From the NCBI GenBank assembly GCA_020846875.1, contig JADLDB010000101.1, forward strand, positions 1 to 64,000: a DNA stretch of 64,000 nucleotides. Reading direction: 5' to 3'. Made by a program: the position numbers and the translations under genes. This DNA comes from Myxococcales bacterium. GTDB lineage: Bacteria > Myxococcota > Myxococcia > Myxococcales > Myxococcaceae. The notes under the pieces were generated by a model. That model was not told the DNA's origin and did no database searches. It was given only the letters and a program-made list of their open reading frames with translations. Each line of letters begins with the position of its first letter. Positions within the stretch are counted from its first letter, which is position 1. This document shows, piece after piece, positions 10,185 through 29,271 of the stretch.

Positions 10185-12068
10185 GTGGCTGTTCCTCTCA
10201 CACTCAAGGTCTTCAAGGGCGAGCAGCTGGTCGCCGAGAAGGACTACGACCGGGACATCATCAAGATCGGTCGGCTGTCCTCGGCGCACCTGTGCCTCGA
10301 TGACGAGAAGGTCTCCCGCATCCACTCGGTGATCGAGGTCGCCCCCGACGGCGCCCTGTCCATCATCGACATGGGCAGCGTGGAGGGCACCTTCGTCAAC
10401 GGCAAGCGCGTCAACAAGGGCACGCTGCAGTTCGGCGACGAGATCAAGATCGGCAACACCACCATCAAGGTGGACAAGGCCGGCGCCGTCGCCTCCATCG
10501 CGCCTTCCATCGCGCCCGTCACTGGCGACGCCACCATCCCCGTTGCCGCCCCGGTGGTGCAGGCCGTCGCCGAGCCCGCGCCGGTGGCCCAGGCCTTCGC
10601 CGCGGAGCCCGCGCCCATGCCGGTGCAGGTCCCTCAGTCCGCGCCCCCCCCGCCTCCGGTGCAGGACGAGCAGTCGGGCGCCGCGGTCCGGGGCCGTCCG
10701 CGCCGCCGCAAGGGCACCGGGCCGCTTGGCCTGGAGCTGCGCTTCCTCTGGGGCGACCAGATGGTGGGCGAGTACTTCCTCCACCCGGGCGTCACGCGCG
10801 CCTTCAGGGTCGGCACCCTCAAGGGCGTCGACTTCGAGATGGGTGACTCGCTGTTCAGCGGCCCGTCCTTCGACGTGGTGCGGGTCGGTCCGGCCGGCGC
10901 CCAGCTGCGCTTCACCTCGAAGATGAAGGGTGAGCTGCAGCGTCGCTTCGGCGACGAGACGATGACCCTGGAGGAGGCGAAGAAGCGCGGCGCCGCGTCC
11001 AACGACGGCGACGCCTACTCCATCACCCTGGCCAACGACGACTTCGCCTGGGTCGATCTGGGCGGCGTGGTGATCGAGGTCTTCTTCCAGCCCGCTCCCA
11101 AGCCGGTCCTGGTGCCCTTCAGCGAGGCCGTCGACTTCACCGTCCTCAACATCTTCCTGGTGTGCTTCTTCCTCGGCGCGCTCTTCGTGATCAGCGCCGC
11201 CAACCGGGACGCGGAAGGTGAAGCGTTCGACGACGAGCTCAACTCCAACCAGGCGCGCATCGCCAAGCTGCTGATCAAGCCGCCCGAGAAGAACCCGATC
11301 CTCCAGAGGTTCGAGAAGCAGAAGAAGGACGCGGGCGAGATCGCCCAGAAGCACAAGGGCGACGAGGGCGGCATGGGCAAGAAGGACGCGCCCAAGCGCT
11401 CGGCGCACGCGGCGCCCAAGGGCGATCCCAACAACAAGGATCAGGCCCGGCTGCTGGCCGCGAAGATCTTCGGTGGCTCGAGCGGCGGCATCTCCACCAT
11501 CTTCGGGCACCAGGGCCTCGGCGGTGAGCTGAAGAGCGCCATGGGCAACATGTTCGGCGCGGCGCCCGGTGACGCCCAGGGCTTCGGCGGGCTGGGCCTG
11601 CGCGGCTCGGGCTCCGGCGGCGGCGGCGTCGGTGACACCATCGGCATCGGCGGCATCGGCACCAAGGGGCGCGGCGGCGGCACCGGCGGCTATGGCTCCG
11701 GCGTCGGCGTGCTCGGCGGCAAGAAGGGCGTGGACATCGGGATCACCTCGTCGGACCCGGTCGTCATGGGCTCACTGGACAAGGAGCTGATCCGCAAGGT
11801 CATCCACGCCAACCGCGGGCAGATCCGCTTCTGCTACGAGGCCCAGTTGAACCGCTTCCCGAAGCTGGAAGGCAAGGTGGCGATCAAGTTCGTCATCTCT
11901 CCGTCCGGCAGCGTGGCGTCGTCCTCGGTGGCCCAGTCCACCGTCGGCAACCCCGAGCTGGAGACCTGCGTGGCCGGCCGCGTCCGCACGTGGATGTTCC
12001 CCAAGCCCAAGGGCGGCGGCGTGGTGATCGTCACGTACCCGTTCATCTTCAAGCAGTCGGGGCAGTGA
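10185..12068 (+). CDS. gltG: Gliding motility protein GltG (FHA domain, one TM span, TonB-like C-terminus)
   Basis: The protein has 627 residues. An N-terminal FHA domain (about 1-100) has the phosphothreonine-binding signature IGR near 29, VSRIHSVIE near 43 and GTFVNGKRVNKG near 67. A Pro/Ala linker and a second basic globular region (about 175-300) follow. One transmembrane helix lies near 315-338 (VLNIFLVCFFLGALFVI). The periplasmic part has a Lys-rich stretch, a Gly-rich linker (about 440-520) and a C-terminal AgmX/PglI (TonB-like) domain from about 534, with a CYEAQL motif. In Myxococcus GltG is an inner-membrane part of the gliding machine linked to the AglRQS motor. The GTG start has AGGAGG eight bases upstream. 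It lies between gltF and gltH. Confidence 0.88.
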   Translation: MAVPLTLKVFKGEQLVAEKDYDRDIIKIGRLSSAHLCLDDEKVSRIHSVIEVAPDGALSIIDMGSVEGTFVNGKRVNKGTLQFGDEIKIGNTTIKVDKAGAVASIAPSIAPVTGDATIPVAAPVVQAVAEPAPVAQAFAAEPAPMPVQVPQSAPPPPPVQDEQSGAAVRGRPRRRKGTGPLGLELRFLWGDQMVGEYFLHPGVTRAFRVGTLKGVDFEMGDSLFSGPSFDVVRVGPAGAQLRFTSKMKGELQRRFGDETMTLEEAKKRGAASNDGDAYSITLANDDFAWVDLGGVVIEVFFQPAPKPVLVPFSEAVDFTVLNIFLVCFFLGALFVISAANRDAEGEAFDDELNSNQARIAKLLIKPPEKNPILQRFEKQKKDAGEIAQKHKGDEGGMGKKDAPKRSAHAAPKGDPNNKDQARLLAAKIFGGSSGGISTIFGHQGLGGELKSAMGNMFGAAPGDAQGFGGLGLRGSGSGGGGVGDTIGIGGIGTKGRGGGTGGYGSGVGVLGGKKGVDIGITSSDPVVMGSLDKELIRKVIHANRGQIRFCYEAQLNRFPKLEGKVAIKFVISPSGSVASSSVAQSTVGNPELETCVAGRVRTWMFPKPKGGGVVIVTYPFIFKQSGQ

Positions 12069-12130: not shown

Positions 12131-12178
12131 TCGATGTTCTCGTCACGCCCCACCGGCTGGGCTAGGGTTCGCCTTCGC

Positions 12179-12805
12179 ATGACGCGTCTTCCTCGGCTGG
12201 CCTGGGTGGTGAGCTGTCTGGTCTCCTCGCTCGCGTTCGCCCAGGCGAAGGCGGTCGAGGACAAGAAGGCGATCGCGTACAACGAGATCGAGCGCGGCTT
12301 CTTCTTCGAGGCCCGGGGCGGCTTCTGGTCGGTCGTCAACCCGCCCACCACCGCCGGTGGCACCACCTACTTCTCGCCGGGCCTGGCGGCGCAGGTGGAC
12401 ATGGGCTTCGACCTGGGCGAGCGCGTGTCGCCCAGCCTCTTCTTCCTCGCCGCCACCAACTCGATGAAGAGCGACTATACGGGCCTGTCCGCCAACGGCA
12501 CCGTGTCCGGCGACTTCAGCACCATGGCGCCCGGCGCCCAGGTGAAGGTGCGGATCGTCGGCTTCGACGACAGCCAGGAGGTCAAGCGCACCTGGATCTA
12601 CGCGCGCGGTGGGGCGGCGGTCGTCTTCTACAGCCCGTCCAGCCTGCTGCCGACGCTGGACGTGCTGATCACCGCCGGCCCGGGCGTGGAGTACTTCACC
12701 CGGCTGCGGCACTTCAGCATCGGCATCGAGGCCAACTTCAACTTCATGGTCCTCACCCAGTCGATCGGCTTCTCGGTGCTCCCCACGGTCAAGTACGCGT
12801 TCTGA
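12179..12805 (+). CDS. gltH: Outer-membrane beta-barrel gliding protein GltH/CglE
   Basis: The protein has 208 residues. A signal peptide ends SSLAFA-QAKA near residue 21. The mature part alternates short amphipathic strands (FFFEARGGFW, PGLAAQVDMGFDLG, WIYARGGAAVVFY, FSIGIEANFNFMV) and ends in a C-terminal aromatic strand KYAF. This is the signature of a small outer-membrane barrel. The size and the place between gltG and the gltI region match gltH (cglE) of the Myxococcus A-motility cluster, whose product is an outer-membrane part of the gliding complex. The ATG at 12179 is chosen from the signal peptide. A terminator precedes it, so it needs its own promoter, which I could not place with confidence. 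Confidence 0.75.
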   Translation: MTRLPRLAWVVSCLVSSLAFAQAKAVEDKKAIAYNEIERGFFFEARGGFWSVVNPPTTAGGTTYFSPGLAAQVDMGFDLGERVSPSLFFLAATNSMKSDYTGLSANGTVSGDFSTMAPGAQVKVRIVGFDDSQEVKRTWIYARGGAAVVFYSPSSLLPTLDVLITAGPGVEYFTRLRHFSIGIEANFNFMVLTQSIGFSVLPTVKYAF

Positions 12806-12872
12806 CCGAGGGATCTCACAAAGCGACAGCACCACTTGACGGAACGGGGGCTTTGAGGCCAAGGGCACCCGT

Positions 12873-14762
12873 ATGACTACTCAGGACACCAAGGGGAAGG
12901 GCCCCGGGCAGGGCGGCCGGGGACGCCGGGAAGGTTTCTCGTTCGGCGACAAGGAAGGCCGCGGCGGTCGCGGCGGGCGGGACGGCCGCGATGGGCGCGG
13001 CGGGCGCGATCGCAAGGGCGGCGGCGCTTCGTACCGCGTCGTCAACGAGCTCTCTGCGGTGGAGAAGGCGCTGACGAAGCTGGACTTCGCGGCCATGAAG
13101 GGCCCGCTGGACGAGGTGCTGCGCGCGCTCAAGCCGCTGCACCTCAAGTCCCTTGAGGACCTCGATCTCAACACCCGCGGCAAGCTGATCACCTCGCTGA
13201 TGCGGGTGGTGCGCGCCCCCAAGCCGAAGCCGACCGAGGGCGGCGCTCCGGCGGACGCGGCGGCGCCGGCTGCCGAGACTGCTCCCTCCGAGGCTCCTCC
13301 GTCTGACGCTGCTCCGTCCGAGGCCCCTGCCTCCGAGGCTCCGCCGTCTGAGTCCGCATCCTCCGAGGCCACGCCGTCTGAGGTTGCTGCGACCGAGGCT
13401 GCTCCGGCCGCCAGCTCCGATGCGCCGCCGTCCGAGGCCGGGCCTCTTGAAGCGGCGACGGGTGCGGTCGAGGCCTCCGCCGCCCCCGCGCAGTCGGTGG
13501 CGGCTCCCACGGCGCCGGCGATCGATCCCGTCACCACCGCCTGGCGTGAGGCGCTCTTCGTCGTCGGCCTCATCTGGCGAGCCGTGGCCGACACGGATCG
13601 CGCCAGCGGCGCCTTCGAGGCCGCCGGCCGCCAGCCCACCGACGCCGAGCTGGCTGCCCCTCCGCGCGCCGAGCGCCCCGAGCGCCCCGAGCGCCCCGGG
13701 CGTGGTCCGCGCGCAGAAAGAGGGCCTCGCGCCGAGCGTGGCCCCCGCCCGGAGCGGCGGGACAAGCGGGAGACCCACGGGCCCTTCGTCACCTCCGGTG
13801 ACTGGCAGAAGGACGCCCAGCGCCTCGAGGAGCTGGGCCGCACCCGCGACGCCGGCCGCATTCACGAGAAGCACCAGTCGTACGCCGCCGCCGCGCGGAT
13901 GTTCGAGATCGGCGGAGATCTCAGGGCCGCGCTGCGCAACGCCGTGCTGGGCAAGCTGGACGAGGTCGTCACCGCGCTCAGCGCGAAGGCCAAGCCCGAG
14001 GACGTGGTGGACGCGCTTCAGCGCGCCCAGGCCTGGGACAAGCTGATGGAGTTCCACGTCGCGAAGAGCGACTTCGACGCCATCGCCCGCCTCTACGAGC
14101 GCGCCGTGCAGTTCGATCAGGCCGGCCTCGCGTGGGAGCGCGCCGGCAAGCTGTCTCTGGCCCGCAAGGCCTATGAGCGCGCGAAGGACGGCGCCGGCGC
14201 GGCTCGGGTGAGGGACCTCGAGGTGAAGAAGCTGGTGGAGCGCGGCGACAAGCTGGGCGCGGCCACGCTGCTGGTCGGGGCCGGCATGAAGGCTGAGGCG
14301 CTCGAGCTGCTCAAGGCGCTGGCTGGCCCCAAGGCCTACCACTTCATGGAGAAGCTCAAGCTGAAGGACGAGGCGAAGGCCTACGCCCAGGCCGAGCTGG
14401 AGAAGGCCCAGGCCGCCGGCGATCTGGTCCAGAAGGCGCGCTGGCTGGAGGTGACGGGCGAGCTGAAGGCCGCCGCGGAGACCTTCCTCGCCGCGGATCG
14501 CAAGGTGAACGCCGCCCACGTCTTCGAGGCGCTCAAGGAGTTCGGCAAGGCCGCCGAGCTGCTCGAGGCCGCCGGGCACCTGGACAAGGCCCAGGCCAAC
14601 TTCGAGAAGGCCGGCGACCAGGCCAACGCCGAGCGCGTCAAGGCGCTCCCCCGGCCCGAGCCGAAGCCGAAGCCCGAGCGCGACGGCGCGGCCACCGAGG
14701 CCCTGCCGCCGCCGAATGGCGTCGACGGCCCTGCGCCCAACGGCTCCCGCGTCAGTCCCTGA
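12873..14762 (+). CDS. Gly/Arg-rich and TPR-like cytoplasmic protein of the glt cluster
   Basis: The protein has 629 residues and no signal peptide. Residues 1-55 are a basic Gly/Arg stretch with RGGRGG-type boxes. Residues about 60-115 form a charged helical segment. Residues about 120-225 are low complexity with a recurring (A/P)SEAP-type repeat. Residues about 260-300 repeat RAERGP/PERPE. The rest (about 305-600) is a run of helical hairpins (YERAVQFDQAGLAWERAGK and similar) resembling TPR repeats. It lies between gltH and gltI, where Myxococcus has one or two genes without an established gliding role. It could be a scaffold or nucleic-acid-binding protein. Function unknown; it is a good candidate for an unassigned component. 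Confidence 0.7.
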   Translation: MTTQDTKGKGPGQGGRGRREGFSFGDKEGRGGRGGRDGRDGRGGRDRKGGGASYRVVNELSAVEKALTKLDFAAMKGPLDEVLRALKPLHLKSLEDLDLNTRGKLITSLMRVVRAPKPKPTEGGAPADAAAPAAETAPSEAPPSDAAPSEAPASEAPPSESASSEATPSEVAATEAAPAASSDAPPSEAGPLEAATGAVEASAAPAQSVAAPTAPAIDPVTTAWREALFVVGLIWRAVADTDRASGAFEAAGRQPTDAELAAPPRAERPERPERPGRGPRAERGPRAERGPRPERRDKRETHGPFVTSGDWQKDAQRLEELGRTRDAGRIHEKHQSYAAAARMFEIGGDLRAALRNAVLGKLDEVVTALSAKAKPEDVVDALQRAQAWDKLMEFHVAKSDFDAIARLYERAVQFDQAGLAWERAGKLSLARKAYERAKDGAGAARVRDLEVKKLVERGDKLGAATLLVGAGMKAEALELLKALAGPKAYHFMEKLKLKDEAKAYAQAELEKAQAAGDLVQKARWLEVTGELKAAAETFLAADRKVNAAHVFEALKEFGKAAELLEAAGHLDKAQANFEKAGDQANAERVKALPRPEPKPKPERDGAATEALPPPNGVDGPAPNGSRVSP

Positions 14763-27219: not shown

Positions 27220-29271
27220 ATGCGCTTTGTCTGTGAGAGTTGTCGCGCGCAGTACATGATCAATGACGAGAAGGTCGGGCCCAAGGGGGTCAAGGTCCGA
27301 TGCCGCAAGTGCGGCTACGTCATTCTGGTCAAGCGTACGGACGCGGCGAAGGGTGGCAATGGCCCGGCGGCCATGTCCACTGATCCGGACGACGCCATGG
27401 CCACGCAGGTGATGCAGACGCCGCTGGGCGGCCCGGAGGCGACGCTCGGCTCCGACAACACCAACCCCGGGGAGGCGCTGGCGCCGGAGGAGCGCACCCA
27501 GACCTCGGGGCCGGATCTCAAGTCCGTCGAGGACAAGGGCGCGCGGGGCGCGGTGAAGGACAGCTTTCTGGGCGCGGACGACGACGAGATCGGCGCGGTC
27601 TTCGATCAGGTGCTGAAGACCGGCCCCACGGCGATCCCGAAGGAAGGGCTGGGCGAGAAGAGCGAAGAGGATCGACAGTCGACGCGCGTCATCGACGCCG
27701 ACATGGTCCGCAAGCTGGCCGAGGAGTCGACCGGCAAGTCCGACGAGGTGGCCACCATCGAGAAGAAGATCGACGTGGTGCCGGAGACGGACTGGTACGT
27801 GGCGATCGACGAGAAGCAGACCGGCCCGCTCACGCTGGAGAAGATCAAGGAGCACTGGGACAAGGGTGAGATCGGCCCCGACTCGCTGTGCTGGCGCGCG
27901 GGCTTCGACGACTGGATCCCCGTGTCCGAGGCGAAGATGCTCGCGTCGGTGCTGGCGCCGCAGCCGCCCAAGCCGATCGTGGTGGCGCCGTCGCCGGTGG
28001 CCGCTGCGGCGATCGTCAGCGTGCCGGTGCAGTCGGCCTTCTCTGCCGGCGGCATGATGCAGACGGTGCAGTCGCAGGTGCAGGTGCCGCTGGGCCTCTC
28101 AGCGTCCACCGCGGATCGCGAGGACACCGGCACCTGGAAGCCCACGGCCGCCTCCGCGCTCGCCTCGCTGGTGAAGGACGAGATGGACGCGCTGGCCAAG
28201 CCGCCGCCCAAGGCGCCCCCGCCGCCCGCTGCCGACGACGTGCCGATGACGCGCGGGCTGCTCGACTTGCCTTCCGCCGACGAGAAGCCGGCGAACGGGG
28301 CGAGCCATGGCCACGCCTACGCCGAGCCGGAGCGGGTAGAGCGGCCCCGCCCGCCGATGCAGTCGTCGCACTCGCCCGCGCCGGTGAACCCGTACCTCGC
28401 CAACCCGGGGGCGACCTTCAGCGCGCCGGCGATGACGCAGTACCGGCCGCCGTCCAACCGGAACCTGATCATCGCCATCGCCGCGGGCGGTGGGCTGATC
28501 CTCATCATCCTCATCTTCATGGTGGTGTGGCTGGCGACCCGCGATCCGCAGGTGGTGGTGGCGCCGCCGCCTGTGGCCGTCGCGCAGCCGCCGGTGGCCC
28601 AGCCGCCTGTGGCTCAACCCCCGGTGGCCCAGCCGCCACCCGCGCAGCCGCCTACCCAGCCCGTCGCGCAGCCGTCGGCGCAGCCCGCAGCCCAGCCTCC
28701 GCCGACGCAGCCCGCCGTACAGCCCGAGACGAAGAAGGAGCCTGTGGGGAGGAAGGAGCCGCGGGTCGCCTCGGCCAGGTCGACGAAGAGCGAGCCGCCC
28801 GAGCCGAAGCAGCCCAGGGAGAGCCCGAAGGAGTCACCGAAGTCGGGCAGCGGTGAGGAAGACGCCTTCGCCGAGGCGTTTGGCCCCGCCCCCAAGGAGC
28901 CGGCGGCGAAGAAGGAGACGAAGTCCGAGTCCTCCGGCGGCAAGAAGGACGTCTACATTCCTCCCGCACCGGGCGGCACCAGCGTGAAGGACTCGCTGGG
29001 CCAGTCGGACATCATGGAGGTCGTGCTGGCCAGCAAGTCGGCTCTGGCAAAATGCGCCGAGCAGCAGCGGGCGAAGGATCCCGGCACCTCCGGCAAGCTG
29101 GTGATGCGCTGGACGATCCAGCCTTCCGGCAAGACGTCCAACGTCGGCGTGGTGTCCGAGGAGTTCAAGGGCACGCACATGGCCACCTGCGTGGGCGGCA
29201 TCATCAAGGGCTGGCAGTTCCCCAGGCACAAGCAGCAGGGCGAGCCGGTCACCTTCCCGTTCAAGTTCTGA
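27220..29271 (+). CDS. gltJ: Gliding motility protein GltJ/AgmX (zinc ribbon, GYF, TM, TonB-like)
   Basis: The protein has 683 residues. An N-terminal zinc ribbon carries C5, C8, C28 and C31. A linker leads to a GYF-type domain near 190-240 (DWYVAIDEKQTGPL, then WRAGFDDWIPV). A second linker precedes one transmembrane helix near 415-440 (ILIILIFMVVWLA). The periplasmic part starts with a Pro-rich repeat of VAQPP units (about 450-505) and ends in an AgmX/PglI TonB-like domain (about 590-683). This order is that of GltJ (AgmX) of Myxococcus, whose cytoplasmic zinc ribbon and GYF modules recruit regulators such as MglA and which spans the inner membrane in the gliding complex. The start is the ATG at 27220. 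Confidence 0.92.
   Translation: MRFVCESCRAQYMINDEKVGPKGVKVRCRKCGYVILVKRTDAAKGGNGPAAMSTDPDDAMATQVMQTPLGGPEATLGSDNTNPGEALAPEERTQTSGPDLKSVEDKGARGAVKDSFLGADDDEIGAVFDQVLKTGPTAIPKEGLGEKSEEDRQSTRVIDADMVRKLAEESTGKSDEVATIEKKIDVVPETDWYVAIDEKQTGPLTLEKIKEHWDKGEIGPDSLCWRAGFDDWIPVSEAKMLASVLAPQPPKPIVVAPSPVAAAAIVSVPVQSAFSAGGMMQTVQSQVQVPLGLSASTADREDTGTWKPTAASALASLVKDEMDALAKPPPKAPPPPAADDVPMTRGLLDLPSADEKPANGASHGHAYAEPERVERPRPPMQSSHSPAPVNPYLANPGATFSAPAMTQYRPPSNRNLIIAIAAGGGLILIILIFMVVWLATRDPQVVVAPPPVAVAQPPVAQPPVAQPPVAQPPPAQPPTQPVAQPSAQPAAQPPPTQPAVQPETKKEPVGRKEPRVASARSTKSEPPEPKQPRESPKESPKSGSGEEDAFAEAFGPAPKEPAAKKETKSESSGGKKDVYIPPAPGGTSVKDSLGQSDIMEVVLASKSALAKCAEQQRAKDPGTSGKLVMRWTIQPSGKTSNVGVVSEEFKGTHMATCVGGIIKGWQFPRHKQQGEPVTFPFKF
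28577..28695 (+). repeat. Short tandem Pro-rich coding repeat in gltJ
   Basis: Successive near-identical 12-15 base units encode VAQPP repeats and then degenerate AQP(P/S) units. Such a tract could expand or contract by slippage and would set the reach of the periplasmic TonB-like domain. Confidence 0.55.

Follow-up and report, generated by a model that had tools for sequence, protein, structure and literature searches.

The window, a stretch of 64,000 nucleotides from a Myxococcales bacterium of the Myxococcaceae (contig JADLDB010000101.1, positions 1 to 64,000), carries a run of glt genes in which a complete coding sequence lies between gltH (cglE) and gltI, that is, inside the glt cluster (Table 1). 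This placement, given in the original prediction, was confirmed by a check of the open reading frame and of its neighbours, among which NCBIfam searches identified gltG, gltH and gltJ, while the gltI position is taken by a 4082-aa TPR protein. The encoded protein matches no family in Pfam (above cut-off), NCBIfam, PHROG or PADLOC, and no defence or phage family (PADLOC, PHROGs) was matched. Hydropathy gives neither a transmembrane segment nor a signal peptide, and the protein is therefore assigned to the cytoplasm, as had been expected. No RNA family was found within positions 8000-30000, and scans for promoters and terminators near agmV gave nothing clearly exceeding chance.

Table 1. Genes around agmV in the window and the parts of its product (positions are those of the window; aa, residues of AgmV).
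Feature	Position	Strand	Remarks
gltG	10185..12068	+	NCBIfam NF033760, 957.9 bits
gltH / cglE	12134..12805	+	NCBIfam NF033755, 150.2 bits; 67 bases upstream of agmV
Long antisense ORF	12816..14579	-	judged spurious, shadow of agmV
agmV orthologue, complete CDS	12873..14762	+	629 aa, soluble, cytoplasmic; ATG start
Gly/Arg-rich (RGG-type) disordered tail, aa 1-50	12873..13022	+	net charge +7; pLDDT < 50
Conserved N-terminal helical domain, aa 51-117	13023..13223	+	three helices 52-68, 72-89, 99-114
Ala/Pro/Ser/Glu ('SEAP') disordered linker, aa 121-214	13233..13514	+	net charge -15
Two-helix segment, aa 217-260	13521..13652	+	helices 219-237, 241-251
Arg/Pro/Glu-rich disordered linker, aa 261-308	13653..13796	+	net charge +6
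Alpha-solenoid, aa 309-594	13797..14654	+	21 helices, mostly of 10 residues and joined by 3-residue turns
Mostly disordered C-terminal tail, aa 595-629	14655..14759	+	AlphaFold2 model
gltI (agmK), giant TPR scaffold, 4082 aa	14834..27082	+	71 bases downstream of agmV; adjacency to agmV conserved
gltJ (agmX)	27220..29271	+	NCBIfam NF033761, 638.6 bits

According to passages of PMC3169522, the slot between gltH (MXAN_4866) and gltI/agmK (MXAN_4863) in Myxococcus xanthus is that of agmV (MXAN_4864/65), a gene recovered in transposon screens for A-motility (the Youderian 2003 screen, as cited there) and excluded in 2011 with the wording 'probably not actual genes' and 'likely pseudogenes'. The window gene has the same slot and, like agmV, is present in a single copy. 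Judged by its position together with a full-length alignment to the ORF of M. xanthus AM003, the window ORF is AgmV; the two proteins align over their whole length and are about 50% identical in the solenoid. The AM003 gene is a single intact ORF of 623 aa; it starts at a GTG that follows gltH by 12 nt and is preceded by a GGGAGAAAG element. Whereas the M. xanthus DK1622 record, as given in passages of PMC3169522, has two locus tags for a gene called a likely pseudogene, the window and AM003 each hold one intact ORF, the sequence comparison having been made with AM003. The description of the protein as unnamed and undescribed therefore has to be withdrawn; agmV is a rediscovered gene rather than a new one. 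In the M. xanthus literature searched, AgmV is mentioned only in PMC3169522 and in PMC4158809, where mass spectrometry of outer-membrane vesicle preparations detected AgmV (MXAN_4865), a detection that is no proof of location as GroEL is in the same list. The literature searched contains neither a clean agmV deletion nor a report of AgmV at focal adhesions or co-purifying with Glt or Agl proteins.

agmV is a genuine gene under purifying selection and encodes a soluble protein. Between species of Myxococcus and of Corallococcus its dN/dS is 0.10-0.20, no higher than that of gltG (0.24-0.32) or gltH (0.15-0.24) and in part lower, and the substitutions are concentrated at third codon positions. 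Constraint extends to the low-complexity parts, as the Gly/Arg tail has a ratio of 0-0.19 and the N-terminal domain and the linkers are likewise constrained. The two other forward frames show no coding behaviour. The antisense frame in register with the agmV codons has a dN/dS of 1.8-3.0 in relatives, and for this reason the long antisense ORF is regarded as spurious; one further antisense reading gives a low ratio through a coinciding wobble position, but contains 7-14 stops. The solenoid is found as a single copy in 52 of the 58 Myxococcaceae genomes and in 47 of the 48 good ones, with 48-70% identity to that of the window. In the sole good genome without the gene (G044) the contig begins 55 nt before gltI, and agmV has probably been lost to the assembly gap. 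The 2011 proposal for MXAN_4864/65, a pseudogene or a spurious ORF in GC-rich DNA, could appeal to the low-complexity tracts and the long antisense ORF, and to the GTG start in Myxococcus and the split annotation in DK1622 (passages of PMC3169522), but it is contradicted by the substitution ratios, the frame tests and the conservation, every complete orthologue examined is open, the intact M. xanthus AM003 gene included, and the protein has been seen by mass spectrometry (PMC4158809); we consider it extremely improbable, and the 2011 verdict looks wrong.

The RGG-rich N-terminus and the SEAP-type tract anticipated from the letters are both present, along with the second, Arg/Pro/Glu-rich tract (residues 261-308), which the original prediction did not name. 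Glycine makes up 38% and arginine 20% of residues 1-50, and these contain four RG dipeptides vs 0.23 expected from the composition of the neighbouring proteins (P = 0.00015). The order of residues is as predicted by the tail's own composition (P = 0.58) and, being not special in this respect, the tail is best described as a composition tract. It is kept in all complete AgmV orthologues of the Myxococcaceae and in most of the standalone homologues described below. AgmV thereby carries the RGG tract that marks RGG RNA-binding proteins, and has a disordered Gly/Arg-rich tail in common with RGG-tailed RNA-binding and condensate proteins, but an RNA-binding domain was not found in it. The conserved N-terminal domain of about 65 aa is helical, and its profile has no match in the PDB. 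The Ala/Pro/Ser/Glu linker is missing from most homologues outside the Myxococcaceae, and since a linker-less homologue retains the same helix layout when folded by structure prediction, the Ala/Pro and Arg/Pro/Glu tracts are interpreted as loop insertions.

The AlphaFold2 model of AgmV, calculated with 35 sequences as input, reaches a pLDDT of at least 90 for 394 residues and predicts the tail and linkers to be disordered. Nearly all of the 21 helices of the elongated solenoid are about 10 residues long and follow each other at a spacing of 13 residues. The predicted TPR-like tail is therefore a repeat solenoid, as proposed, but one of 13-residue helical modules and not of canonical 34-residue TPRs; the autocorrelation of alanine has its maximum at 13 in the AgmV solenoid vs 35 in GltI, no Pfam TPR match is found in the window AgmV, and the period together with the model rules out a canonical TPR. 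GltI resembles AgmV in being a cytoplasmic repeat solenoid encoded by a neighbouring gene of the same operon, but its 4082 aa are built of canonical TPRs that recur every 35 residues, whereas AgmV has the shorter period, the RGG tail, the linkers and other nearest structures. The best PDB matches of the AgmV solenoid profile are the intraflagellar-transport proteins IFT172 (E 3.8e-14) and IFT144 (2.4e-12), followed by IFT122 and IFT140, along with clathrin-type solenoids, and a control search with the GltI N-terminal profile gives no IFT match. At E <= 0.01, 16 of 20 AgmV solenoids match PF24762 and 17 of 20 match PF00637; the window AgmV itself scores below the Pfam cut-offs for these IFT/clathrin-type solenoids, and a distant homologue (L065) attains 28.0 vs a PF24762 cut-off of 26.8. 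Foldseek places IFT-A chains among its top rows, with TM-scores (by query length) of only 0.12-0.19. AgmV also differs from the IFT proteins in having no WD40 propellers. Repeat similarity can be convergent; we consequently assert no homology to IFT proteins, and the likeness to the IFT/clathrin type is a resemblance in kind, that is, in class of solenoid.

Within the Myxococcaceae, agmV is fixed between gltH and gltI. The refuting condition named in the original prediction, a gene not conserved at this position in other gliding genera, thus does not hold inside the family. The two genes agmV and gltI share contig and strand in 71 of 76 genomes and lie on different contigs in the remaining five. 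The AgmV solenoid and the GltI C-terminus are 10.8-14.5 kb apart, gltI alone accounting for about 12.3 kb, and the distance from the gltH stop to the agmV start is 2-144 nt with a median of 12 (43 loci). The order gltH-agmV-gltI is also retained in two Myxococcaceae genomes of 2.1-2.7 Mb (L038 and L056; G019, Th196P3bin117 and G033, Co191P4bin16). One groundwater MAG has some 2.3 kb of additional DNA between agmV and gltI (L058:7099-9378), and its agmV is a basal branch within the family. A Myxococcus-type glt cluster is also present in L067 (BNCN01000006.1), whose title reads 'Comamonas sp. KCTC 72670'; as this 9.0 Mb genome falls within the Myxococcaceae, the title is probably a mislabel.

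The linkage to gltI, whose conservation the original prediction had proposed to check, does not extend beyond the family. Confident AgmV homologues, defined by a profile score of at least 300 bits, are found as single copies in other Myxococcia families (f6-f10) and consist of a basic or Gly/Arg tail, the N-terminal domain and the solenoid, usually without the long linkers, and the rest of the phylum sample reaches at most 71 bits. Outside the Myxococcaceae, agmV is near gltI in none of the nine genomes having both, and a distance of 1.75 Mb lies between them in one complete genome (G083). The neighbours of the standalone homologues include none common across families. Contiguous gltG-gltH-gltI without agmV is observed in f9 and f4, and in f6 gltH adjoins gltI; in one f2 genome (L095, G061) about 8 kb containing other ORFs separates gltH from gltI. 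In the tree of AgmV the Myxococcaceae are monophyletic with support of 100/100, all other sequences falling outside. As homologues elsewhere stand alone while gltG-gltH-gltI run without agmV, the ancestor of the Myxococcaceae most likely took an older stand-alone gene of the Myxococcia into its glt operon.

Co-occurrence of the two proteins outside the family is loose. Of the 10 sampled genomes outside the Myxococcaceae that carry AgmV, 9 carry GltI as well, an association that is not significant (p = 0.12), and an obligate pairing there is therefore unsupported. GltI without confident AgmV is found in families f2 (probably Anaeromyxobacteraceae) and f4, and conversely no GltI is detectable in one genome that has AgmV (G099). 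These cases indicate that AgmV and GltI are not obligate partners and that Glt-type machines do not universally include AgmV; AgmV is not present wherever GltI is, and it is encoded in the glt cluster in the Myxococcaceae only. The proposal that the gene encodes a gliding component is plausible, agmV being locked in the glt operon of the Myxococcaceae; the GltI-bearing families without a confident AgmV count against it.

We propose, as a reading that we hold to be about evenly balanced between right and wrong, that AgmV acts as a cytoplasmic scaffold or adaptor of the Agl-Glt gliding machine. In such a model the solenoid would dock a partner in the cytoplasmic platform, most likely GltI, the product of its invariant neighbour, or else the side of GltI-bound AglZ, MglA or MreB. 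The Gly/Arg tail and the oppositely charged linkers would provide multivalent, flexible contacts with nucleic acid or with other copies of AgmV, and these contacts would help to cluster or tether the Agl-Glt complex. The phenotype of the agmV transposon mutants could be a polar effect on the downstream gltI and gltJ, and because of this it cannot separate the adaptor from the two alternatives that follow.

One of these, which we consider possible though distinctly the lesser prospect, is that AgmV is an RNA- or nucleoid-binding protein with a housekeeping or regulatory function, merely encoded in the glt operon, with gltI/gltJ polarity behind the mutant phenotype. The architecture predates the linkage, as the standalone homologues of f6-f10 keep tail, N-terminal domain and solenoid far from glt; in the gliding clusters of f4, f6 and f9 no agmV separates gltH from gltI, and the AgmV-bearing genome with no detectable GltI fits this reading as well. 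The linkage to gltI is nonetheless invariant across the sampled genera of the Myxococcaceae despite their deep divergence, nine of the ten AgmV genomes outside the family also have GltI, no known RNA-binding domain was found, and an Arg/Gly tail is by itself no proof of RNA binding. It is unlikely, in our estimation, that AgmV is instead a dedicated assembly or stability factor for GltI, which would bind the nascent chain or the mRNA and leave no trace in the finished machine. The invariable slot directly upstream of gltI in the Myxococcaceae would be consistent with such a factor, and a solenoid with a basic tail would suit a chaperone, but GltI is also made in f2, f4 and others in which AgmV is missing, and outside the Myxococcaceae the genes for the two proteins show no linkage.

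The adaptor reading can be taken a step further. AgmV might be a missing structural component of the gliding machine that associates with the motor as a cytoplasmic adaptor, bears an IFT-like solenoid together with an RGG tail, and derives from an older myxobacterial protein that once stood alone. By multivalent contacts, possibly dependent on nucleic acid, it would cluster or tether the focal adhesions as they move; in this full form we regard the reading as doubtful. The list of Agl-Glt parts was fixed in 2011 without agmV, reviews follow that list in the passages concerned, and in their passages dealing with the gliding machine the 2025 and 2026 reviews do not name AgmV. The cytoplasmic platform in current models of gliding may thus lack one component, and the capture of a stand-alone protein by the operon in a single family would be a concrete case of how a gliding machine grows.

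Two further observations concern proteins related in type to those discussed above. The weak Polyangia-type matches to the AgmV profile (at most 71 bits) were rejected as AgmV, since both loci opened (G167, G147) encode Ser/Thr kinases, and Myxococcota Ser/Thr kinases with an AgmV-like N-terminal solenoid of short helices are seen at L092:2768-5482 and L093:309-2705. One Myxococcaceae genome carries a second GltI-like protein in an open frame of 5294 aa (G010:C9:65627-66862).
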